A stretch of DNA of 64,000 nt from a bacterium (lineage in GTDB: Bacteria; Patescibacteriota; Gracilibacteria; Absconditabacterales; Absconditicoccaceae), in NCBI GenBank assembly GCA_020627925.1, contig JAHDFY010000003.1, positions 112,534 through 176,533 on the forward strand, given 5' to 3'. The notes under the pieces are model-generated. The model was not told where the DNA came from. It saw only the letters and a program-made list of their open reading frames with translations, and did not search any database. Position numbers and translations under genes: made by a program. Each line of letters begins with the position of its first letter. The first letter of the stretch is position 1. This document shows positions 22,085 through 42,812 of the stretch, in pieces.

Positions 22085-22894
22085 TTAATTGGGGATTTTA
22101 GAACACTCGAATGGTTCTAACCCCAGCCAGGTATTCAAAAAAATACCTATACTCAAAGAAATGTCAGCAGAAGAGCTCTTATCTCCAAAAACACTGCTCC
22201 ACAATACTGCATAATTATATTCTTTTAAACAATAAGCATGATAACCACCAACCCAGAACAGGTATAAGTCATAATCAATACTAGAGTCAGGAACAAAATT
22301 AATTATTGATTGATTAAGTGAAACAATTTTTTCATTGTGAAAATTTATATATGTTTCGCAAGATTTTTCAGCGTTGTTTAATTTTATGTATTCACGAAAC
22401 AGCTTTTTTTGTTCTACAGTTGGCTTACGTAAATGGTTTTCCGCAAATTGCTTTTCTTGAACAAAGGCACTCAATAAGTTATACAAAGCAACTGAAGCAC
22501 TATCTGTTTTTTGAGTGATTTCCTTATACATAAAACTATCTCTCTGATCAATTTGATAGCAATCAAGACCTCTTTTTTTGTAATACACTATATCCTTTTT
22601 TGATAGCAATCCTTCAGGAGCGAAGGCTGTTTTAATATCATGTTTTTGTATATATTTGATTAAGGTATCTAAGACGCCTCTATCTCTTTCAAAATCTGGA
22701 TGATATTTTGCCCAGACCAATTTTTTTTTGTTTGTATTAGTTAAGGTTTGAGGATCAAATCCCAAAGCCCTTTCCACATCTTTGTAAAATAAAATCAGTT
22801 TTTCTTCTTGTGTGCTTTTTTGATTATTACAAGATATCAAAAAAAGACTAATAAAAACGAAAGATATGTGAAATGTTAATAATATTTTTTTCAT
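22085..22894 (-). CDS. Predicted lipoprotein of unknown function
   Basis: The 269-residue protein has a short basic N-terminus, a hydrophobic core and a plausible lipobox (LFLISC, Cys at residue ~22), so it should be anchored on the outside of the membrane. The mature part is mixed alpha/beta with many Lys/Tyr residues and scattered cysteines; I recognise no domain. None of its roughly nine glycines is UGA-coded. It is a single gene between AT-rich spacers. Confidence 0.7.
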   Translation of the reverse strand: MKKILLTFHISFVFISLFLISCNNQKSTQEEKLILFYKDVERALGFDPQTLTNTNKKKLVWAKYHPDFERDRGVLDTLIKYIQKHDIKTAFAPEGLLSKKDIVYYKKRGLDCYQIDQRDSFMYKEITQKTDSASVALYNLLSAFVQEKQFAENHLRKPTVEQKKLFREYIKLNNAEKSCETYINFHNEKIVSLNQSIINFVPDSSIDYDLYLFWVGGYHAYCLKEYNYAVLWSSVFGDKSSSADISLSIGIFLNTWLGLEPFECSKIPN

Positions 22895-22967
22895 TTTGCT
22901 CTTTTATTGTTTTGTTATTTTAATGAGCTGATTTTATTATTATTCTTTTTTATGTCAACAAAAATAT

Positions 22968-23837
22968 CTATTTTTTTGAGCAGCATGGAGGTTTTTGTTG
23001 TAGATCGCCAAACACAACGCGAACTCTCTCTGATCGTGAACGACATCTTTTGAGATCTTTTCGAATATTATAAAACTCAATAAACGTAATAGAAACAGGA
23101 TTGTTGGTATTGATGTTTTTGGTAAGACCATAGACAACTTTTTCTTTTTCTGGTTCGTAGGTACCAAAAAGTTTATCCCAAATCATAAGAATGCCACCAA
23201 AATTTTTGTCTAAGTATTGCTTGTTTGAACCATGATGAACTCTATGGTTTGACGGAGTGTTAAAAAGAGAATCAAGAAAACCCAAGGTAGTGATTTTTTC
23301 TGTATGAATCCAATGTTGATATTGCGCAACTATGATAATTGCAACAATAGTCATCAGCGGAGAAAACCCCAACAAAATCATAGGAACAAGAAAAATGTAT
23401 TCAAAAAGAGCTTCCACAATACTTAACCTAAACCCAATAGTCAGATTATAATCTTCAGAAGAATGATGAACGCTATGACTTGCTCGCAACAAACGACTAT
23501 GATGTTCGATACGATGCATCCAATAATAAGTTAGATCTGCACAAACAACAGCAAGTAACCACGTCCACCACGTTTCTTGTATCGTAAAAAAAGCAAATTG
23601 CTGAAACCACAAAAGGAAAATCACTCCAATCGAACCATAAAGCGTCATTTCCAACACATTCCCCACTGCAAAAATTACAATATTAGCTCCGGTATCTTTT
23701 CGCCTGCGCTCCTTACTCGTTGTAAAATCAAGAATAATTTCTACAAGCGTAATCGCAACATTGAACAAAAAAATCAGCCCAATATACTCAGCCCATGGCC
23801 CATATTCCAAAAAATAAGCAAGTTGTTCGAACGACAT
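22968..23837 (-). CDS. Fatty acid hydroxylase / sterol desaturase family membrane protein
   Basis: This membrane-bound di-iron oxygenase family member has several hydrophobic segments and the histidine clusters that bind iron: HRIEHHSRLLRASHSVHH (covering HxxxHH and HxxHH-type boxes) and a C-terminal NHRVHHG motif. Family enzymes hydroxylate or desaturate lipids such as fatty acids, sterols or carotenoids; the substrate is unknown. I start it at ATG 23837 (MSFEQLAYFLEYG) because the TetR gene, when UGA is read as Gly, runs to 23872 and covers the longer alternative N-terminus. The result is 289 residues. No UGA glycines. The TetR-like gene lies directly upstream on the same strand and probably regulates it. 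Confidence 0.88.
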   Translation of the reverse strand: MSFEQLAYFLEYGPWAEYIGLIFLFNVAITLVEIILDFTTSKERRRKDTGANIVIFAVGNVLEMTLYGSIGVIFLLWFQQFAFFTIQETWWTWLLAVVCADLTYYWMHRIEHHSRLLRASHSVHHSSEDYNLTIGFRLSIVEALFEYIFLVPMILLGFSPLMTIVAIIIVAQYQHWIHTEKITTLGFLDSLFNTPSNHRVHHGSNKQYLDKNFGGILMIWDKLFGTYEPEKEKVVYGLTKNINTNNPVSITFIEFYNIRKDLKRCRSRSERVRVVFGDLQQKPPCCSKK

Positions 23838-23871
23838 CAAAAATATACAAAAAATAATAAAAGACTTATTT

Positions 23872-24423
23872 CTACGATTGGAGAGACAATCACAACAAAG
23901 AGTATCGCGTTGTGTAGATGTGTTTCTTTCCTTGTTCTGAAGAGAATGCCTTATTTTTTTGTGCTTCTCGTCAGGCAACGACCAATCCATACAAAACATA
24001 CACAGCTCGATTGATATCTACGTGAGAATGAATCTCTCATTTTTTTTGTAAATTTTCAAGTAACTCATAAACAAAATAATATTGTTTTTCATAGGCATCA
24101 ACAAAAGCTTGGTTCTCTTCAAGATAAGAAGAAGAGTACACAAAATAATAGCTATACATTTGATCAGTCATAAAAATAACCGACTCATGTAATTTTTCTT
24201 GTGTAGAAAGACTAGCGTTCTGGGCAAGAGCGGAAAAGAAATGAGTATTTTCTTCAAACATTGTGGTAATAATCTCATGAATCATGTCTTTTTTGGTTGC
24301 AAAGAGCTTGTATGCAGTTGTTCTTGATATCTGTAGCTTTTTGCAGATCGTCACATAATCCATAGAGGAGTTTTGATTCAAAAGAGTCAGAATCTTTTTG
24401 AGAAGATCAGATTTTTTGTACAT
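23872..24423 (-). CDS. TetR family transcriptional regulator
   Basis: The 183-residue regulator has an N-terminal helix-turn-helix (DYVTICKKLQISRTTAYKLF, residues ~22-41) and a helical ligand-binding region. In the standard code it would stop at residue 128; reading UGA as Gly extends it by ~55 residues (GEIHSHVDINRAVYVLYGLV...), completing a normal TetR length. Its stop codon TAG lies 35 bases before the fatty-acid-hydroxylase-family gene, so the pair forms a probable operon and autoregulated unit. The inducer is unknown but may be a lipid. Confidence 0.87.
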
Positions 24424-29649: not shown

Positions 29650-30059
29650 TACCGTAAAAAAGTTTCAAGAAAGTAAAGTTTCAAAATATTATACAAAAAA
29701 TTAAAAAAAATAGCAAATTTAAGGTCGTATTGTACAGTATCATTACTTACAATTAAACCACCATACAGTTTATTTTTCTATACTACTTTTTTTATTCGTC
29801 AATAGTATTGCAAAAATCCTCAAAACAAGCCCCCCATATTTAAAACAAGGAACAATATTGATTGATGCGATTATACATTCTTAATAGGATGCAATTTATT
29901 AAGTGGAGATGATTTAGAAAAAAGTGTTTGTTATTGAAAGCTATATATTTATTATTTTTGTCAATGACTCAATTAGATAGATTAACAAAATCTTACCCTA
30001 ATAAATGTCATTAAAAGCAAAAATAAAATAATTTCTAACAAAAATCAAAATAATAAGCT
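29650..30059. other. AT-rich spacer upstream of the standard-code island
   Basis: About 410 very AT-rich bases without a convincing gene, separating the divergent LRR gene and the island operon. It must contain both promoters. The 3' end carries ATTTCTAACAAAAAT at 30031-30045, about 15 bases before the first island start codon; nearly the same word precedes the start at 34356. No tRNA or integrase that would mark an insertion site is visible. Confidence 0.45.
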
Positions 30060-31259
30060 ATGGTTACATTTCAAAATCTTATTAAACTTAATCGACAAAT
30101 AGTTGTTGATCAGTTTGGTGCAAGAGCCGGGAATTTACAATTCTTAAAAACTTTGGAAAGTCTAGGTTTTTCTGTCCCATCATTTGCCTGTTTGCCAATT
30201 GAACTATCCGCTACAATTAATGCCCATCTTGGAGTTTTGTCAAAAGAATTGATTGAGTCAGACAAAAATTTTAAGGCATCAAAATTACTGGAAAAATCAA
30301 TATGGAATCGTGCTCCTGCTCATATAAAAAAATCCCTATCATCAGCCGCTTCATTCAGTAAAAAGTCTCTAATTATTAGGGGAACATCTCGTTTAGAAGG
30401 ACTTGAATCACTATCCTTTGCGGGGGTTTGTTATTCACACATTCCTTCAAAACCATATCAAGATCCATTGGATATTGAAACAGGAATAAAAAGTGTTCTT
30501 GCAGGTGCCAGGAGTCCTTATGGATATTATTATAAGCAAGTGCACAAATTGGCAAGTCATATGTTCGATGTAGGAATAATCGCTATGGAAATGATAAACA
30601 ATGCTATCTATTATGGTACTTTGTATACCTATGAAAACCACATTGGTATAAGACTCATGGGTAAAGATATGGATGTTGATCATTTTTACGAAAAAAAGTA
30701 TTTGCTCTCAAAGAAAAATCTAAGTAAAGAAGAGGAAATCATTCAGTGGATATCAAAAATTTGTTATAAAGTTACAGAGCACTTTGAAACACAAAATGGT
30801 ATGGATATTGAATTTCTTATTACTAAATCAAAGAGCAAACTTGTACTGTGGTTAGTGCAAGGTAGAGAAATTGTTGATATTCATATCAAAAATTACAAAG
30901 CAGCAAGGTTTAATGAAGTCCAGCATGGTCATATCATCAACACTGTAGGCTGTTTTTCTGGGAAAGTAAAAACATTTACAAATGATGAAAAATACTTTAA
31001 AGATGAAGACACACTTTTTATTATTAAACATCAAAGTGGAAATGGAACATTTAAATTTCTTTCTTCTTTAAAAGATAAGTTTGATAATAAAATAGGATGT
31101 ATTATTTTGCATGCAAATGATAAAGATGATCACCTTCAATATTCAGTATTTGAAGACCCTAGGTTATCATTTATTTTTCATGCTAGAAATGATAAGTTTG
31201 ATTTTTCAGAAGGTAGCATTATTTCTGTAAAGTCTGATGGTTTTAACTTAGTTTACTAA
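30060..31259 (+). CDS. PPDK/rifampin-phosphotransferase-like ATP-grasp + swivel domain protein
   Basis: The first 285 residues match the ATP-binding domain of PEP synthase, pyruvate phosphate dikinase and rifampin phosphotransferase: GARAGNLQFLKTLESLGFSV (like GgKgaNL..l...G.pVP), LIIRGTSRLEGLESLSFAGV (like VRSSat.ED....SFAG) and IEFLITKS...WLVQGREI (like iEwa....ilQaRpI). The last ~100 residues (VGCFSGKV to KSDGF) resemble the phosphohistidine swivel domain, with a candidate His in KDDHLQYS. The PEP-binding barrel is absent. It could transfer phosphate from ATP to a small molecule or sugar, by inference. Ends with TAA; no UGA in 399 codons. First gene of the four-gene island. Confidence 0.72.
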   Translation: MVTFQNLIKLNRQIVVDQFGARAGNLQFLKTLESLGFSVPSFACLPIELSATINAHLGVLSKELIESDKNFKASKLLEKSIWNRAPAHIKKSLSSAASFSKKSLIIRGTSRLEGLESLSFAGVCYSHIPSKPYQDPLDIETGIKSVLAGARSPYGYYYKQVHKLASHMFDVGIIAMEMINNAIYYGTLYTYENHIGIRLMGKDMDVDHFYEKKYLLSKKNLSKEEEIIQWISKICYKVTEHFETQNGMDIEFLITKSKSKLVLWLVQGREIVDIHIKNYKAARFNEVQHGHIINTVGCFSGKVKTFTNDEKYFKDEDTLFIIKHQSGNGTFKFLSSLKDKFDNKIGCIILHANDKDDHLQYSVFEDPRLSFIFHARNDKFDFSEGSIISVKSDGFNLVY

Positions 31260-31265
31260 AAAAAT

Positions 31266-32414
31266 ATGCTTATAGATATGGAAATAAAATTTAATTCATA
31301 CTCTTACCAGGAAGTAGTTAAGGGAAAAACTGTCAACTTTACCCTTCTTGAAGGTTTAACTTTGCCTGAAAAGGCTAAAATTACAAGTGTTGCCTGTATT
31401 CCTTATATTAAAAGTGAGGATATAGTCGTAACAAAATTAGAGCGTGGTTATGATATACCAGGTGGTCATGTTGAAAATTCTGACAATACATTACTAGATG
31501 CTTTAAAGAGAGAGTTATCAGAAGAAGTTGGCCTAATAATTGGCGATTCTGTTAAAATAATAGGAGTAATATCATCTGATTATTATGGCTCTTCAAAAGA
31601 AGATATTAGTTACATGGTTATAACGACGACACAAAATATAATAAAACTTGAGGATGATTTTGAACCTCAACTTGAATCTTTGGGTCGTGAAGTTATGTCT
31701 GATAAAAATTTTTTAGCTTATTATAAGGCTGGAGATAAAACATTGATGAATATTCTTGTTATGAGAGCAAGACATATTCTTGGTAAAAAGCAACTTAATG
31801 AAACAAGAGAATTTTTTACAACTGAAAGTGAATGGGATAGGTCTTATGCTAATGCTACTTGGGCTTTCCTAAATCAAAATTCTGATGAATATGAACGCTT
31901 AAATAATATTGTCCAATATTTGGAAAATAGAGAAATTAAAGAAGTATTAGATATTGGTTGTGCATATGGCAACATAGCATCTATATTGTCTAATTCAGTT
32001 AATTATCTTGGTATTGATATAGCACCAACAATTATACAAAGAAATCAAAAACAATCCTGCTTTGGAGAATCCGTAAAATTTCATGTTTCTGATTTTACAA
32101 AGAAGGGAGTTATTTTTGATAAAAAGTTTGATGCTATCGTTGCGTCTGAAATTCTCTATTATTTCAATGCTACTAAACTTAATAAGTTCATTGAAAATAT
32201 TAAGAATAATTTAGCACAAGACGGAATTTTATGCGTAAGTATGTGTCGTAGTGATCGTTCTGATATACATCCTACTGATTACTATTGGAAGAAAATAGGT
32301 GAACACTTTGAAAAAATTGAAGATATTGTGTTTTCAGGAGATACTTATACTTGGGACATAGCCTTCTATCAAAAAAATAATATATGAAAAAAACAAATAA
32401 AAATATCGCCATAA
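31266..32414 (+). CDS. NUDIX hydrolase - SAM methyltransferase fusion
   Basis: An N-terminal NUDIX domain (residues ~1-170) has the box GGHVENSDNTLLDALKREL followed by SEEVG, the metal-binding site of enzymes that cleave nucleoside diphosphate-linked substrates. The C-terminal class I methyltransferase domain (~205-370) has motif I VLDIGCAYGN and LGIDIAPT, and ASEILYYF. The original stop is probably the UGA at 32385-32387, which overlaps the next ATG as ATGA. In the UGA=Gly host it reads on for nine residues to TAA 32412-32414, the end given here. ATG 31278 is an alternative start. Six bases separate it from the gene before. No other UGA occurs in frame. Substrate may be a nucleotide sugar or its product (inference). 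Confidence 0.8.
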
Positions 32415-33457
32415 CAACTCATTCTTGTATAGATGATGGTATGGCTATTCATCTCAAATCAATTCAAATAGCATTAGAAAAATTTTATCATGTTACTTGT
32501 TTAGATGATGCGAAACATTATTCAATAAGTTATTTAGACCAATTTGACTATGTTATAAGATATGGTTGGAGAATGGAAGAAGGGGCAGGTTTTTCTACAG
32601 GTCGCTTTGATTGGAATATTAGTTCATCAAGCGCCAAAAACATTCTTGCAGTCTGTTTTGACTGTAGAATGCTGTCTCCAGAAAAAATACAAGAAATAGA
32701 ATTAAATTTTGATACACTAATATTTGATTCTAGCTTCTCACATCAGAATGGTATCAAATATTTTGGACACAAAGTAACAGAAATTGTCAGTCCAGCATTA
32801 CTTGGTCATCCTGGTGTAAAAGAAAATATTGTAAATAAAAAAACTACTAGCTATAAGTTCTTGCATATTTCTAATAGTCTTCATTATATCAAAGGTGTAG
32901 ACTTAATAATAGATGCTTTTAGATGTGCGTTTGACTCATCTAATGAGGGAGTGCAACTAGAAATTTTAGCATCTGAAAATGATGGTAAATTAGGAGAATT
33001 TAAAGCTATTTTCCAAAGTGAAAATAGAAAGTTCCAGTTAGTTATAAATCAAACCAGGTACTCTCATAACAATATTTGGTCTCTTTATGAAAAAGCAAAT
33101 TGTTATGTTTGTGCAAGTAGAAGTGAGACATTCTCACTACCAACAGTTGAAGCTGCTAGTGTGGGTTTACCTATAATTATGCATAATAATGGTGGAATGA
33201 GAGATTATTCTCCAATGTGCGTTCATTATGCACCTAAATCACAATTGGAGACTATTCCAGAAAATATTTGGAGAAAAAATAAATCTATTATTACTATGAG
33301 ACCTAATATTCGTAGTTTGGCTAGCAAAATGATGCAAGCATATACTGAAAAAAGAGTTAATGTATACGAAAGTAGAAAAGCATTAGTATATCGCTACTCT
33401 ACGAATATAATTGCAGAAACTCTAAAAACTATTTTAGTATGAAACATATTGTTCTAG
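32384..33457 (+). CDS. GT-B glycosyltransferase, family 4-like
   Basis: The C-terminal half shows the GT4 nucleotide-sugar-binding domain: FLHISNSLHYIKGVDLIIDA, NCYVCASRSETFSLPTVEA and then ASVGLPII, including the E-x7-E motif (E in SETFSLPTVEA). The N-terminal acceptor domain is divergent. It should transfer a sugar from a nucleotide donor to an unknown acceptor in the cytoplasm. Starts inside the end of the upstream gene (ATGA overlap). Its own probable original stop is the UGA at 33440-33442, again an ATGA overlap with the following gene; under UGA=Gly the frame adds five residues and ends at TAG 33455-33457, as annotated. No other in-frame UGA in 352 codons. Confidence 0.85.
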
Positions 33458-34113
33458 CATATCATCATTTTGTAAAAAATAGTTATGATAAAAAATCCAA
33501 GCTATATATAGATGAAGTACGATTTAGGTCTCATTTACTCTCACTAATGGAATCAAATTATAAACCAACTATTTCTTTAGCTGATTGTATGAACGAAACA
33601 AATACATTCCATATTACAATAGATGATGGCTATTTAAACTTTTACAACATTGCTTATCCAATATTAAAAGAATTAAATATTCCAGCAACCTTATTTGTTC
33701 CTACTTCTAGAATTGGAATTACCTGTTTTGAAGAGGATTACGGAACGAATCAAACATATTGTTCAAAAGAACAATTGTTAGAATTTGTTGCAAGTGGACT
33801 AATTAATGTTGAGTCACATGGACATGGTCATATCAAGCTTTCTAACCACTCCTATAGAGAACAGTATGAGGATGTAGAAAAATCATTAGATATTTTTTCT
33901 AGTTTAGGATTAAAATCAAATGTTTTTTGTTACCCATATGGTTTGTATAATGAAGATACTGTGAGAATTTTAAAATTATTAGATTTTAATTACTCGTGTT
34001 CAACAGTAACAGGAGTAAATAAAACAATTGATGAATATAAAATTGAAAGATTAGCTCCAGATTCTACAATGAATGGAAATGATTTAATTAAGCTAATAAA
34101 GCTATATAAGTAA
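33439..34113 (+). CDS. NodB-type polysaccharide deacetylase
   Basis: This 224-residue carbohydrate esterase 4 (NodB homology) protein has motif 1 ITIDDGY (catalytic and metal Asp), motif 2 SHGHGH (the H-x3-H metal pair) and motif 3 CYPYG. It would remove acetyl groups from N-acetylated sugars. There is no signal peptide, so it should act inside the cell, unlike peptidoglycan or capsule deacetylases; this fits a role in making a glycosylated small molecule or precursor together with the three genes before it. Ends at TAA and is followed by a terminator. No internal UGA. Confidence 0.87.
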   Translation: MKHIVLAYHHFVKNSYDKKSKLYIDEVRFRSHLLSLMESNYKPTISLADCMNETNTFHITIDDGYLNFYNIAYPILKELNIPATLFVPTSRIGITCFEEDYGTNQTYCSKEQLLEFVASGLINVESHGHGHIKLSNHSYREQYEDVEKSLDIFSSLGLKSNVFCYPYGLYNEDTVRILKLLDFNYSCSTVTGVNKTIDEYKIERLAPDSTMNGNDLIKLIKLYK

Positions 34114-34172: not shown

Positions 34173-34355
34173 CTTATAAAAAGATGAACAAAAACTTTTT
34201 ATAAAAAATTTAGTTTTAGTAATAGAGACTAATCTACAATAAACACATATTTTACCTAACTATCCCTCCCATCAAAGCTCCTATTGTTATTGACACAATA
34301 TTTACGTATAAACAGCGGGTAAAAAGATTTCTAACAAAATATTTAACGTAAGATT
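34173..34355. other. Intergenic region upstream of secreted paralogue 1
   Basis: AT-rich spacer with no gene. It ends with ATTTCTAACAAAAT (34327-34340), the word also found before the island's first gene. TTGACA at about 34289-34294 could be a -35 box, but no well-spaced -10 follows. Confidence 0.4.
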
Positions 34356-34745
34356 ATGCAAAGATTTATTGCAACACTAATTCTCATTTCTATTATTTCT
34401 ACAGCTTGCTTCGCTCAGGATGAGTGCTGGGAAAAAAGAACGAAAGCACATACATTTGGCGTTATAGTCAAAACAACTCCATCTGATATAACAAATATAT
34501 TAAATAAATCCAAGACAAGATGGACTAATTTAATGCTTTCTACTCAGGATGTCAAAGATTATTTTAACCAAGAAGCAACAAATAAAAAAGGCGTGTCTAA
34601 ATGGAAACAAGGCACAAAATTATGGATAGAGGAAAATAATAAAATAATTGGTTGCTATGATAGTGATAATCAGTTTCTTGCGCTCCTAGAACCAACAGCA
34701 TCAAAAACTCCTGTTCCTAATAACATATCAGGAGCCAGTTGGTAA
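34356..34745 (+). CDS. Small secreted protein, paralogue 1
   Basis: The 129-residue protein has a Sec signal peptide (MQRFIATLILISIISTACFA, then QDECW). The mature part shares a pattern with the gene at 34893: ECW.KR near the start, an acidic/Trp helix (W..L..S...VK.YF) and LWIEENNKIIGCYDSDNQFLAL near the end. Two cysteines per mature protein probably form a disulfide. Function unknown; its position beside the island is the only context. No UGA codon. Terminator follows. Confidence 0.75.
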   Translation: MQRFIATLILISIISTACFAQDECWEKRTKAHTFGVIVKTTPSDITNILNKSKTRWTNLMLSTQDVKDYFNQEATNKKGVSKWKQGTKLWIEENNKIIGCYDSDNQFLALLEPTASKTPVPNNISGASW

Positions 34746-34892: not shown

Positions 34893-35297
34893 ATGCAAAG
34901 CAAAATTATCATATGCCCGCTTGTCATTGTCATCATTTATTTTTTCTCAACAAATTGCTCTTTTGCACAACAAACAGCCAAAGAAGAGTGTTGGCAAAAA
35001 AGAGAGCGTAGTACGACAATATGTCGCATGACTCAAACCTCTCCCCAGGAAATCAAGAACTTGAGAAACATTTCTCATGAGACATGGCTTAATCTTAAAG
35101 TTTCTCAAGAGGAGGTAAAAAAATATTTTGACGAGATAGTAAAAAACAATTCCAATATTACTATTGCAGCGAATAAAGAAAAGCTGTGGGTAAAAAACAA
35201 AAACAACAAAATAATTGGTTGTTACGATAACACCAATAAATTTTTGGCTCTAAAAAAGAGTACAAAAAAACTCACTATCTCACCGCCTAAAACCTAA
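34893..35297 (+). CDS. Small secreted protein, paralogue 2
   Basis: The 134-residue exported protein has a signal peptide with a hydrophobic core (IIICPLVIVIIYFF) ending near FAQQ. The mature part aligns with the gene before: EECWQKRE, W.NLKVSQEEVKKYF and LWVKNKNNKIIGCYDNTN. It carries one extra Cys (ICRM). The pair arose by tandem duplication, each copy keeping its own terminator. No known family recognised. TAA stop; no UGA. Confidence 0.75.
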   Translation: MQSKIIICPLVIVIIYFFSTNCSFAQQTAKEECWQKRERSTTICRMTQTSPQEIKNLRNISHETWLNLKVSQEEVKKYFDEIVKNNSNITIAANKEKLWVKNKNNKIIGCYDNTNKFLALKKSTKKLTISPPKT

Positions 35298-37714: not shown

Positions 37715-39085
37715 TTAGGTGATCAGTACAAAGTTGGTGAGTAAGTACCCTGCTCCTATCACTACCACACCAATGAAAACATACATGATGTATCTTCTGA
37801 TTGATGCCAAGTTTTCTTCACTATCAGGTTTGATCAAAAACTTGAATGTAAGGAAGATAATGATAGCAAGCACAAAGAAAGCAGCAAGCGACATAACCCA
37901 TCTCACAATTTCATACAAAATAGGAATGTTCGCATTTGCAAACAGAGGAGAACCAACTTGCGTTACATCCGTGGCATTTTGGTTACGTATTTGCTGTTCA
38001 CTTCCATACACAAATTCGATCAATTCATTGGATGCCAAAATTACAAGTATTCACGTTACCGATGCCACAATAATATTTTTTGATTTTGTTTGTACTTCCT
38101 CGCTACTTGATGACAAGAAGAAGAACACACGGCTCATCAAAGTCAAAAATAAGACCCCAACCACGATATACAAGAACAATTTCAAGAACGGATAGACAAT
38201 CAAGTCATAAAACTGTCATGCTATTTCCACTCCACTCACGGCCTGTATTTCACCGCTGGACAGAATTGATTCATAAATCGTTGTTGCAATAAACAAGGCA
38301 GACATCATCACGATAACTCCCACAACACCCCAGATGATATAACTAAATCATGTCGATACTTGATCAGCATCATCCGAAAAGAACATATAGTAGAAGCCAA
38401 TAAGAGCGATGAAAATACCCGCAATAATAATACCAGGAATTGCCAAATCATTGAGGACTCCTAATATGAATGCTTGTACTCATTCTGCGCCTCTTTGTGG
38501 TACTGCAGTATCAAGTTTTTCTTTAATTGGATCTCTTGCAAGATTCAATGTTGCGTCAAACCTTCCTGGGCTTGTCTCAATTACTCTCAATTTTATCGAA
38601 TCAACGACCACACTTCCGGGAGTAAGAGAAAACTCATTAGTAAAATTAAAACGACATTCTAATTCAATCAAAGTATTAGGAACCGTCGTTGCCGTAGCAG
38701 GAACAGAAATCTGCGTCAAAACCTGTTGTGTGGCAGCCTGTACCAAAAAACTGTTGATCTCTGGCGATTGATACAAAATTTGCGGAGCAACCGGCCCGGT
38801 AAGGTTTTGACAAGTAATAAATCCTGTGGCCAATGATGGAATAGCGAGACCTGCACCAGCTTCCAAATCTTGTGGACCATTGTTGATAAGCAACGCTTGA
38901 AGCTCAGGAGACGAATACTGAGCAATTCCAAATTCTCCTGATGCCAAACCAGCAGAAGAAACATTTTGTTGTGCCAATTCCAAATCACCAAACACAACAT
39001 CAGTCTGTTGGGCATAAGTAAGTCAGATGGTAGCACACAACGAGAGAGCAACTACACATGCAGAAATAATAAGACGAAACATCAT
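37715..39085 (-). CDS. Polytopic membrane protein of a type-IV-secretion-like block
   Basis: The 456-residue protein has an N-terminal signal peptide (MMFRLIISACVVALSLCATI, then LTYAQQ), a ~190-residue extracytoplasmic domain with few Cys and about seven hydrophobic segments in the C-terminal half (for example VQAFILGVLNDLAIPGIIIA, IIWGVVGVIVMMSALFIATT, IVRWVMSLAAFFVLAIIIFL). It is third in a same-strand row with VirB4 and another membrane protein, so a channel or pilus-base role (VirB6-like or pilin-like) is inferred from context only. Starts 18 bases before the next gene's stop. Two adjacent ATGs are possible starts. Confidence 0.7.
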
Positions 39086-39102
39086 AGCAGTCAAAAATAA
39101 AA

Positions 39103-40119
39103 CTAATTTTTAATTCATACTTTTTTGCCTATCCAGACAAGCAATTGCGCGCATTCATGTAAGACAGGAATCAAAGGATACTGTTTGTAAGGAATCATAA
39201 TAAGATATCTTGCGGCCAACAATCACAGCGCTAGCACTTCTATCCCCAACCTCAGCCCAAACAAATATCACGAATAAAGGCCATAGGCATAATAAAGCAA
39301 AAAGAGAACAAAGAATGTATATTCAAAGAACAGCACAACATTTCACGTAAAGCTATGCAATTGCGTGTATTCTCTTCTTTGATGGAGCATGAGGTCCTTA
39401 AGAACAACATCTTTTTTGGAAATATAGTATTGCCAGGTATAAAGACATAATCATTTCAAGTCTCATCGAAGTTCCTCAATATTGACCATAAACAAGGAGT
39501 TGATGTTTTTTTTCCATTGTAGAGGCAGAATATCATAGCCACTCATTAAGGTAATCAATCTAGTGATAATCAATAATACGACAATACCTACGAATAAGAC
39601 AGAGTGGGTCATCAGCACACTAGCAACAAGCAGTAGTGTCCACAGCAAAGACTCTTTGAGCAACCAAAAGGGATGGTCAAATTTGTGTACCTTATACCAG
39701 AGATGAAAGTTGTATCAGGGCAAAAAGCTTTTTAGCACATCTTTTTGAGATTGTTCTATTTTGGAAATAGAATAAATAACATCATCCGCATGCTTGATCA
39801 ATGGCGTATGTGAAAAGATAAATACCGATCCAATCACCAACAACGCCACCAAAAGATACATAGCAACGGTATACGCCAATTCAACAAACAATGTTGGTTG
39901 AATAAAATTGTATGCTCCCATTATTGCAACCACCGCCGCAAGTACAAGAGAGACATAACCCAATTTTGCATATCACAGAATAAAATTCTTATCTTCTGGG
40001 GAAATTACAATGGTTATTTTTTTTACAAAAAATTGCACATACGGAGCAAAAAAGAACAATCCTGCCAATGACAAGAATATCCTTGTTTGCTGTGGTAGTG
40101 ACACCATTGAAGTAGCCAT
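39103..40119 (-). CDS. Integral membrane protein next to VirB4
   Basis: The 338-residue protein has about seven to nine predicted membrane segments in two groups separated by a polar loop (SKIEQSQKDVLKSFLPGYNF). No motif of a known family is visible; it does not look like PrgI, the small protein that often precedes VirB4 in Gram-positive systems. It lies 27 bases after virB4 and 17 bases before the next membrane protein gene, so these three are probably one transcript. Several UGA glycines. Confidence 0.7.
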
Positions 40120-40146
40120 ACGATGCTAGTAAAAAGATAAAAACGC

Positions 40147-42618
40147 TTATAATCATTTGATCAATTGAGTAACTTGTGTTGTATCTGTGTCGTCATTATT
40201 GTTTGATTGCTTATTGGCAACCGGAATACTCGCTTGTTCCACAGGCAAGTCTTTAATCTCGGTAATAATTGCCGATGCATCATCCATCCCAGTCATAATA
40301 GGAGCTGATGGTGGAGTTACCTGCGCTGGAGTGTTTGATGGCGGAGGAGTAGTGATCTTCTGAGGAGTTGGTGGTACTTGTTGAGGTGAAGGGTTAGCTT
40401 GTTGTACGGGAGGCTTCGGTTGCGGTGGTGGCGGAGAAGCTTTTGTGGTTGTTGTTTGTACTGGTGGGTTTTGTGCAATTTCCACACCCAATGATTGTTT
40501 TGTTTCAGGTTTTGGGGCTGTTTTTTTTACACCTACATCAGTCGAGATAAAGTTTTTTTCGTGAGGAGCAGCAAGAATTTTTACGGCAATATGCTGATTT
40601 CCTGCAAAAATCAAACCTTCTCCGATACTTGCAGCAACTAATCTTTGTTTTTCTGATTCGGACAAACCGATAAGTGATTCCAGTGACTTGATCGATGTTG
40701 TTGATTGTTTGAGTAGAATTTGCATTGCTGAGTTGGAAATAATCGGTTTTCCATATTTTGATCTAATGAAGTCTTCGATATCTTGCGAAATAGTCGTAAT
40801 TCACAAACCATATTTTCTGGCTCTTTTGATCAGACCAAATAAGAAATTAGCCGATGTTTCATTTTGAAGCATAATCCAAGCTTCATCCGCAACAAGCAAC
40901 CTTCTTCTTTTTTCGGCTCTTACTTTGGTCCAGATAAAATTAAGCGCATTATACATTGCTGGAGTCTTCAAAGCATCTTCCAAATCTCTGATAGAGAAAA
41001 CAGTCATTTTGTTATCGATATCAATATTGGTGTAGTTATTGAATATTTTTGCAAAAGCTCCCGTTACATACTTACTCAATCTTACTGCAATATCTGCCGC
41101 GGCATCTCCTTCCATTCCTTGCAAAACATTGTACAAATCAGACATCAATGGTGGTTGCTTTCACGCATAATCATCCATATCCATGGTGATTCCTTTTAGT
41201 TGATAAGTAGTCGTGATTGCTCTATCCAATACTGCTTCTTGTTGAGGAGTAATACCTCCAATCATGATTTGAATAAGTCCAACAAGTGAGGCAACTTGCC
41301 CTCTCAAAAGATCTCCCTTTCCATAGTTTCTATCTTCAAGCTTGGGTGGTAGATCAAATGGATTAATAAATTGATTAGAACTTGTAGAAATATTGACGTA
41401 GGTCCCTCAAACTTTGTCAACCAAACTAATATACTCGTTTTCAGGATCGATAACCATAACGTGAATGTCGTTCAGCAGATATCTCAGGATTTCTAGTTTT
41501 ACAGTAAACGATTTACCTGCTCCCGATGTCGCCAAAACCACACTGTTCATATTGGGAAGATTATTGTTGAATCTGTCAAAAATTACTAATGATCCTGTGT
41601 GTTGATTGATTCCATAAAAAATTCAAGTCTTACTAATCATATCAGTAGAAATAAACGGAAACGACCCAGCCAAAGAAGAGCTAATCGTGCTTCTCGTGAT
41701 TCCTAACCCATCCAAACAAATAGGCAAACTACTTTGAAATCCTTCATCCATTCTTTGGTAGGCAGATTTTACTTGCACTCCCAATCCGCTAATTTTTTGT
41801 TCAAACTTTTTTCCAATTTCATTAAGTCTGCTTTGATCTTCTGTATACAAATTGACGTATGCTCACGTTTCGTAGTATCTTTCTTCTCTTGTTGCTAATT
41901 TTTGTCTAATCGTTTGGATATCTCTATATTGCACTTCTAGCTCTGTATCAATAGTGATTCCTCTTTGCACTGATTCATTGATCTCTGCTTTGATTTGCGT
42001 TGATTTTTGCTTCAGTACTCATTGAATGGCACTATCATCTTCAGGATAAATAAAAAAGCTAATATCCCATTTTCCATCAATGGCCAGAATATCTCTTGTC
42101 CAAAGAGACTCTACATACGACGGATATTTTTCTACATAATAAGTCTTTCCAGGCAATCCCGATACAACAAATTTTCCTCCTTCAACTTTCCAATACGAAG
42201 CAGAAACATGCGATTTATAGTCAGCAAGATTGGCATTATGTTCTTTTTCGTTTTCCAAAATATACTTTCTCAGCTCATTGGTAAGCAGCTTGTCTGAATA
42301 TTTATCATCAGGCATTTCAATCAACTCTTTTATCTGTTGTTTAAGAGGAGATTTAGCAGAGATCTTGGTCGCTGTTGCTGTGGTGTTTTTTGTTTCTGAA
42401 GTGGTTTTTTGTTTCTTTGTTTGAGTTGCTCATCATCACAATAATCCACCAAACAACTTATCAAAAAATCCTTGTTTTTTTTCTGTTGATGCTGGTGTTG
42501 TCTCTTTTTTTTGATCTTTTTCTGTACTAGAAAATGTTGCAAAAATAGGATATCCCCCTCCAGGAATCTCCTTTGAATAATTTGCATCATAAACAACATT
42601 AGTAAACTTTTCGAGCAT
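40147..42618 (-). CDS. virB4: VirB4/TraC-like type IV secretion ATPase
   Basis: This secretion ATPase powers type IV secretion, conjugation or related pilus machines. The 823-residue protein has a VirB4 N-terminal domain (WDISFFIYPEDD, ...LYTEDQSRL), Walker A LATSGAGKSFTVK, IDPENEYISLV, Walker B RRRLLVADEAWIML and the ITTISQD-type sensor region after RARKYG. The C-terminal ~130 residues form a Pro/Gln-rich tail (PPPPQPKPPVQQ) unusual for the family. UGA glycines occur throughout, including before ITTISQD. It leads a three-gene row. No VirD4, relaxase or mobility protein is in view, so DNA transfer cannot be claimed; a protein-secretion or pilus role is equally possible. Confidence 0.93.
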
Positions 42619-42812
42619 TAACCACAGACAGAAACATAAAACATTTTTATCTGACCCTATTGTACGTTTTATACGAAGATACTTCCAACTATCATCCCTG
42701 TATCACGTCTTCAACTTGCCATCTCCCAAAAAATGATATAATAAATAGCACTTGACTTTGTTTCAATTTTGAGTAAGAAAAAAATATTAATCAAACGTAT
42801 AAAATAAAAAAA
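42619..42812. promoter_or_regulatory. Divergent spacer virB4 / small Cys protein
   Basis: About 190 AT-rich bases between divergent genes. The stretch acttgactttgtttcaattt (around 42751-42770) offers a -35-like TTGACT for the plus-strand gene but no clear -10. Nothing else is recognised. Confidence 0.35.

Follow-up and report, generated by a model that had tools for sequence, protein, structure and literature searches.

At positions 30060–34113 of the window, a stretch of 64,000 nucleotides from an Absconditicoccaceae bacterium that reads UGA as glycine, four open reading frames (ORFs) are tightly packed on the + strand with one 6-nt gap and two ATGA overlaps between them. Together they comprise 1348 codons and form an operon in which UGA appears only as a stop for the standard code. 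The features of the locus, along with genes from related genomes that are discussed below, are listed in Table 1.

Gene content and coding of the operon

The ATP-grasp part of gene 1 was assigned by a Pfam match (9.6e-9), and its C-terminal part is, in our reading of the sequence, putatively of the phosphohistidine type. Gene 4 gave a Pfam match of 1.9e-21 and has relatives in the PDB; a PDB search with genes 1 and 3 returned no match at the thresholds used. An AlphaFold prediction for gene 1 from two sequences had a predicted local distance difference test (pLDDT) score of 33, and the model was not used. The combination of a glycosyltransferase, a deacetylase, and a methyltransferase suggests that the operon acts on a glycan, and no product is claimed.

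Table 1 Features of the operon, its flanks, and syntenic genes in related genomes.
Feature	Position	Strand	Description
Direct repeat, left copy	30024..30043	+	20 nt, 36 nt before the gene 1 ATG; contains ATTTCTAACAAAA
Gene 1	30060..31259	+	399 aa, PPDK_N / PEP-synthase-like; TAA stop; 24 Gly, 0 TGA
Gene 2	31266..32387	+	373 aa, NUDIX and S-adenosylmethionine (SAM) methyltransferase fusion (Pfam); standard-code stop TGA; 20 Gly, 0 internal TGA
ATGA overlap (32384–32387) and host read-on of gene 2	32384..32414	+	UGA as Gly and eight residues, then TAA (translation)
Gene 3	32384..33442	+	352 aa, GT4 glycosyltransferase (Pfam); standard-code stop TGA; 16 Gly, 0 internal TGA
ATGA overlap (33439–33442) and host read-on of gene 3	33439..33457	+	UGA as Gly and four residues, then TAG (translation)
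Gene 4	33439..34113	+	224 aa, polysaccharide deacetylase, NodB superfamily; TAA stop; 10 Gly, 0 TGA
Direct repeat, right copy	34320..34339	+	18/20 match to the left copy; 36 nt before the ATG at 34356
Small secreted protein	34356..34745	+	129 aa, Q-rule-like signal peptide; 5 Gly, 0 TGA
Small secreted paralogue	34893..35297	+	134 aa, Q-rule-like signal peptide, A-rich leader; 1 Gly, 0 TGA
Syntenic UGA-free type IX-tail genes	L174:10965-15374 and L175:5097-9508		
Syntenic UGA-free type IX-tail genes	L172:15387-17501 and L173:16969-19089		
Syntenic UGA-free type IX-tail genes	L176:8958-10319, L177:8851-10197, L178:18073-19383		

Several features of the genome establish the host code. A tRNA with the anticodon UCA is encoded at G000:C5:211671-211744 (G000 being the host genome); ARAGORN labelled it as selenocysteine (SeC), and because its length of 74 nt is ordinary we take it as a Gly tRNA instead. 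The single PF00472 match in the genome is prfA (447 bits with a cut-off of 423; the prfB model scored 244 with a cut-off of 370), and the prfA gene itself carries an in-frame UGA. MutL was found in 18 genomes of the host family (f1), where it always contains UGA, and in six genomes from other families, where it never does. Among 12 columns with UGA in the f1 MutL sequences that are ungapped and invariant in five standard-code sequences, 11 are Gly. Since UGA is read as Gly, host ribosomes should read on at both ATGA overlaps, so that the gene 2 product gains nine residues and the gene 3 product gains five. In the database, these two proteins (P0005 and P0007) likewise have the longer, read-through lengths, and the UGA position is translated as Trp.

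None of the 70 Gly codons of the operon (24 + 20 + 16 + 10) is TGA. In the ORF list of the window, where every ORF is read to TAA or TAG by construction, TGA accounts for 269 of the 1062 Gly codons (25.3%) of the other 40 ORFs, and the naive chance of the operon's zero is 1.3e-9. A 408-kb genome sample, which includes the window and leaves out the operon, gave 28.1% UGA among 7088 Gly codons. Under a beta-binomial model, which takes gene-to-gene variation into account, the chance becomes 8.6e-7 when the four genes are treated as independent and 7.5e-4 when the 70 Gly are treated as a single block. Among the 273 other four-gene blocks that contain 40 or more Gly, the lowest count is two UGA in 57, and UGA-free single genes were found elsewhere in 14 of the 266 genes with at least 10 Gly. 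An earlier note on this DNA had described a four-gene operon lacking internal UGA, with UGA as the natural stop at both ATGA junctions and extensions of nine and five residues when UGA is read as Gly; codon counts, sequence, and translation agree with it on all of these points.

The same note had set beforehand, as the comparison able to refute its proposal, the C-termini of homologues against the UGA positions. The gene 3 homologues P0008 (63%), P0009 (35%), and P0010 (37%) end −1 to +3 residues from the UGA position, and no conserved run-through was seen. Gene 2 has no full-length homologue. Beyond the proteins themselves, the numbers of homologues were one for gene 1 (P0006, 53% identity across the full length), zero for gene 2, and four for gene 3.

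Relatives of the host were searched with genes 1 and 3, not with genes 2 and 4, and the sampled genomes include none of the same genus. Gene 3 was found only in its own genome among 379 genomes of the phylum (E 1e-20); a search of 59 genomes returned itself and weak generic matches in six others. Gene 1 was likewise confined to its own genome among 288 genomes of the class, and no UGA-containing orthologue of the operon was found in these searches. Two scans of species-genome contigs, each based on two short peptide patterns, yielded no confirmed relative. Viral contigs held no relative of the operon genes, and phages gave nothing for gene 1 and weak domain matches only for genes 2 and 3. Plasmid matches of gene 4 (e.g. 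Monoglobus 36%, Emticicia 29%) are too distant to indicate a donor. A search for an empty site gave no result, as the gene order around mutL in eight relatives does not match that of the window.

The composition of the operon was compared with that of other blocks of the genome. Its guanine-cytosine (GC) content of 0.301 is equally low in four of 284 blocks, its TTA share of 39% of Leu codons is equally high in three of 284, and four of 278 blocks show a stronger codon-usage deviation. By gene, genes 2–4 lie at the 83rd–90th percentile of codon usage. The compositional check proposed in the earlier note sets the block apart in GC, TTA, and codon distance and does not set the single genes apart; codon usage is only mildly atypical. 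A codon score trained on UGA-free genes did not separate native genes from either the UGA-free ones or the operon.

Flanking repeat and secreted neighbours

The two copies of the 20-nt direct repeat stand at the same distance from the start codons that follow them, and the repeat may have been left by an insertion or may belong to a leader common to both genes. Its exact 13-nt core occurs twice in the whole genome, i.e. in these two copies. The proteins encoded at 34356 and 34893 are paralogues with 42% identity that were found in their own genome only and in none of 35 relatives. Compared with native intergenic leaders, those of gene 1 and of the gene at 34893 are at the 99th percentile for A-richness and that of the gene at 34356 is at the 83rd; the leaders of the inner operon genes are at the 83rd, 92nd, and 60th. 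On the basis of the leaders, the Q-rule-like signals, the paralogy, and the absence from relatives, the foreign stretch may extend to 35297.

Two other groups of genes in the window are recorded here. Genes for a type IV secretion system (T4SS)-type pilin and a TraG/VirB4-like ATPase lie near the operon at 37715–42729; relatives of both are located near mutL in G006, and a relative of the ATPase also near mutL in G021. At 22085–23999, two further UGA-free ORFs (9 and 15 Gly) may be another import. One of them (22968–23999) encodes a fatty-acid hydroxylase; among its plasmid matches, the one ranked best comes from Spirosoma (36%).

UGA-poor genes with type IX tails in the recoded family

A host gene outside the operon (C3:30816-33737, 973 aa, 62 Gly) is also UGA-free and carries a type IX secretion sorting tail. 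The corresponding family PF18962 (E up to 1e-3) was detected at 58 places in 25 of 36 f1 genomes. In all 58 genes taken together, UGA encodes 57 of 2640 Gly (2.2%), and 46 of them have none; in the sampled f1 genomes, 22–64% of Gly is written UGA. The 41 mostly better-scoring places contain five UGA in 2006 Gly, and the remaining 17 contain 52 in 634, with UGA in 9 of the 17. Nine of the 12 UGA-using type IX-tail genes are among these 17 places, and several of the 12 have no signal peptide. In the gene of locus L214, UGA lies eight codons before the end and resembles a standard-code stop. All of these ORFs were read to TAA or TAG, and their ending at one of these two codons is by construction. 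In G046 (locus L205), a genome of a second UGA-using family, UGA is found at 329 of 374 Gly in sampled genes and at 0 of 39 in the type IX-tail gene.

In three genera, type IX-tail genes are located at the same place in different species and are flanked by UGA-using orthologues (Table 1). Four same-genus pairs, which were chosen by tail and place and use G026 twice, share 162 Gly columns (58 + 61 + 22 + 21), with UGA at none and differing GGN codons at 104. Two neighbour genes in G012/G022, chosen as UGA-free, add 81 columns and were kept apart from the 162. The flanking genes share 509 Gly columns, 284 of which contain UGA (100 in both members and 184 in one only). Synonymous identity at A, P, T, and V is 31–43% in the UGA-free genes and 43–56% in the flanks. 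To judge from these sequences, the tested type IX-tail pairs are not recent arrivals. The lack of UGA is accordingly not a clock, because these genes stayed UGA-free while diverging at syntenic places. Ribosomal protein L2 carries UGA at 148 of 545 Gly in 17 genomes of the family (the host's own L2 at 2 of 32), so that expression is no family-wide cause of the lack. Nor is secretion, because the gene at L174:3792-7502, which has a signal-like N-terminus, contains 34 UGA in 117 Gly. SprA_N, which belongs to the type IX machinery, was found in 0 of 59 genomes, yet no control genome matched either, and its absence is not established.

Some UGA-free genes of recoded relatives have no type IX tail: an adenylosuccinate lyase (L184:4155-5495, 25 Gly), a glutamate-synthase-like gene (L188:1088-2701, 46 Gly), and a PhoH-like gene (L189:11348-12742, 31 Gly). 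These are candidate imports from the standard code.

In their leaders and signal peptides, the type IX-tail genes resemble genes of Bacteroidota. At positions −20 to −1, those with signal-like N-termini (n = 32) have an A fraction of 0.58, compared with 0.34 for the 429 intergenic leaders of native genes (p = 3e-13). In a survey of 430 genes with at least 15 Gly, which includes loci fetched for type IX genes, A-rich leaders were present in 20 of 30 UGA-free genes and in 41 of 400 others. A Q-rule pattern of our own was present in 16 of 21 UGA-free genes and 20 of 149 others among 170 genes with signal-like N-termini. Within the 58 type IX-tail genes, this pattern had no significant link to the lack of UGA (p = 0.11). 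Of the three type IX-tail leaders in the standard-code relative G041, two exceed the local mean of 0.38, and one falls far below it, perhaps owing to a wrong start. Among three UGA-free cassette genes, plasmid matches were obtained for one in Hymenobacter and Runella (2 records), for a second in Bernardetia, Aureispira, Hymenobacter, and Persicobacter (5 records), and for the third not at all; we take all of these genera to be Bacteroidota. Two observations count against a distinctive Bacteroidota style. The Bacteroidota promoter word TAnnTTTG is not enriched before type IX-tail genes (2 of 39, compared with 40 of 311 native genes), and Shine-Dalgarno words are present in only 8 of 339 host genes. 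As far as the accessible parts of the sources describe them, Bacteroidota have Kozak-like leaders in place of Shine-Dalgarno sequences (PMC6847099), and Gln is exposed at most of their signal-peptidase sites (PMC5837995).

The long exclusion of UGA together with these signals fits genes that must also be readable for a Bacteroidota partner with the standard code. Another possible explanation is that gene conversion from such a partner has repeatedly removed UGA from the type IX-tail genes. We put forward only tentatively, as a proposal with the odds against it, that recoded Patescibacteria keep UGA-free chromosomal genes with Bacteroidota-type starts, signal-peptidase sites, and type IX tails for delivery to a standard-code Bacteroidota partner that reads and displays them, the island at 30.0–35.3 kb being a recent addition.

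Origin of the operon and comparison with known systems

We consider it probable (about 0.75) that the operon, a cassette of four genes that lack internal UGA and keep UGA as a standard-code stop, was acquired horizontally from a standard-code bacterium, possibly one of the Bacteroidota, and that its predicted role is to build or modify surface sugars. In the donor, translation would terminate at each UGA and resume at the ATG that overlaps it, which would couple genes 2, 3, and 4. In the host, the putative tRNA-Gly(UCA) would read on, leaving the short tails and plain overlaps, and all four proteins would be made nearly intact. If so, the code difference would hardly be a barrier in the direction from the standard code to the recoded one. 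The phosphotransfer enzyme, the NUDIX-methyltransferase, the glycosyltransferase, and the deacetylase are predicted to act on one glycan. The earlier note had proposed a recent transfer from a standard-code donor. Transfer is supported by the unrepaired UGA stops, the lack of close relatives in the sampled genomes, and the low GC and high TTA, and the ends of the gene 3 homologues, the A-rich leader of gene 1, and the repeat at both ends also count in its favour; recency is not supported, since type IX-tail genes of the same family stay UGA-free while diverging. As far as sequence can tell, the lack of UGA would mark writing in the standard code and not necessarily a recent arrival.

Some results weigh against this origin. 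The searches of proteins, genome contigs, viral contigs, phages, and plasmids named no donor, and a Bacteroidota donor is not established because a distant gene 3 relative is found in a Saccharimonas metagenome-assembled genome. Gene 1 has codon usage typical of native genes (26th percentile), a second codon score places the operon only at the 78th percentile, and repeat words with two mismatches are not in excess in the window (16, with 13.9 expected). Strongly expressed host genes are themselves UGA-poor (L2, as above; atpA, 1 of 48 Gly; rplK, 0 of 17), and serS likewise has few or no UGA. The operon might, on the last of these grounds, consist of native genes that lost UGA through strong expression. 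This is very unlikely, as TTA makes up 0–10% of Leu in the UGA-poor expressed genes and 39% in the operon, and expression leaves both the UGA stops and the phyletic gap unexplained.

A less improbable, though still unlikely, alternative is that the operon and its two secreted neighbours are kept readable in the standard code by selection, for a Bacteroidota partner that receives and translates them. In the family, the UGA-free syntenic type IX-tail genes point to such a class, and the operon shares with it the A-rich first leader, as does the gene at 34893, with Q-rule-like signals in both small neighbours. The UGA stops of genes 2 and 3 do not fit that class, most members of which hold no UGA anywhere; no orthologue supports a long residence of the operon, a delivery route is not demonstrated, and the Bacteroidota promoter word is not enriched. 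Transfer is preferred over membership in a standing UGA-free class because two UGA stops are kept and no orthologue shows long residence. An assembly or binning artefact, in which a piece of a foreign genome was joined in, might be suspected from the repeat at both ends and from the cassette's absence from every other sampled genome. We regard it as the least probable explanation: the exact shared repeat word is 13 nt and usual assembly words are longer, and the contig, which is 176 kb long, has UGA-using genes to the left and right of the operon, whose position is about 30 kb from the contig end.

Genomes with an altered genetic code are often assumed to be cut off from gene exchange. The operon indicates a one-sided barrier, with standard-code genes nearly unharmed in a UGA = Gly genome and bearing short tails at most. 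The wider class consists of genes that resist a codon used freely by their neighbours; it leads to the prediction that these uncultured bacteria have a partner among the Bacteroidota, and it opens to testing the question of whether the same genes are read by cells that use two different codes.

In the literature as far as it was accessible, we found no earlier case of a transferred piece that keeps standard-code UGA stops in coupled overlaps, and our search for type IX secretion in Gracilibacteria, the Candidate Phyla Radiation (CPR), or Patescibacteria returned no relevant paper. The accessible part of a gracilibacterium study suggests lateral acquisition of some genes (PMC6851277), i.e. foreign genes in a recoded genome, as here. 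Some phages of Gracilibacteria and Absconditabacteria are, in the part of the report available, compatible with code 11 and have no in-frame TGA, and a wider host range extending to standard-code bacteria was proposed for them (PMC10746230). Like the genes of the operon, theirs lack in-frame TGA and suit both codes. In contrast to these phages, which are described there as whole phages, the present case is a chromosomal operon of metabolic enzymes in which UGA is still a stop and for which no phage relatives were found, and the UGA-free genes of the relatives are chromosomal genes for secreted proteins. The latter share with the type IX cargo of Bacteroidota, in so far as the accessible parts of the sources describe it, the tail, the Q-rule signals, and the Kozak-like leaders (PMC5837995, PMC6847099), but they are located in recoded genomes of another phylum.

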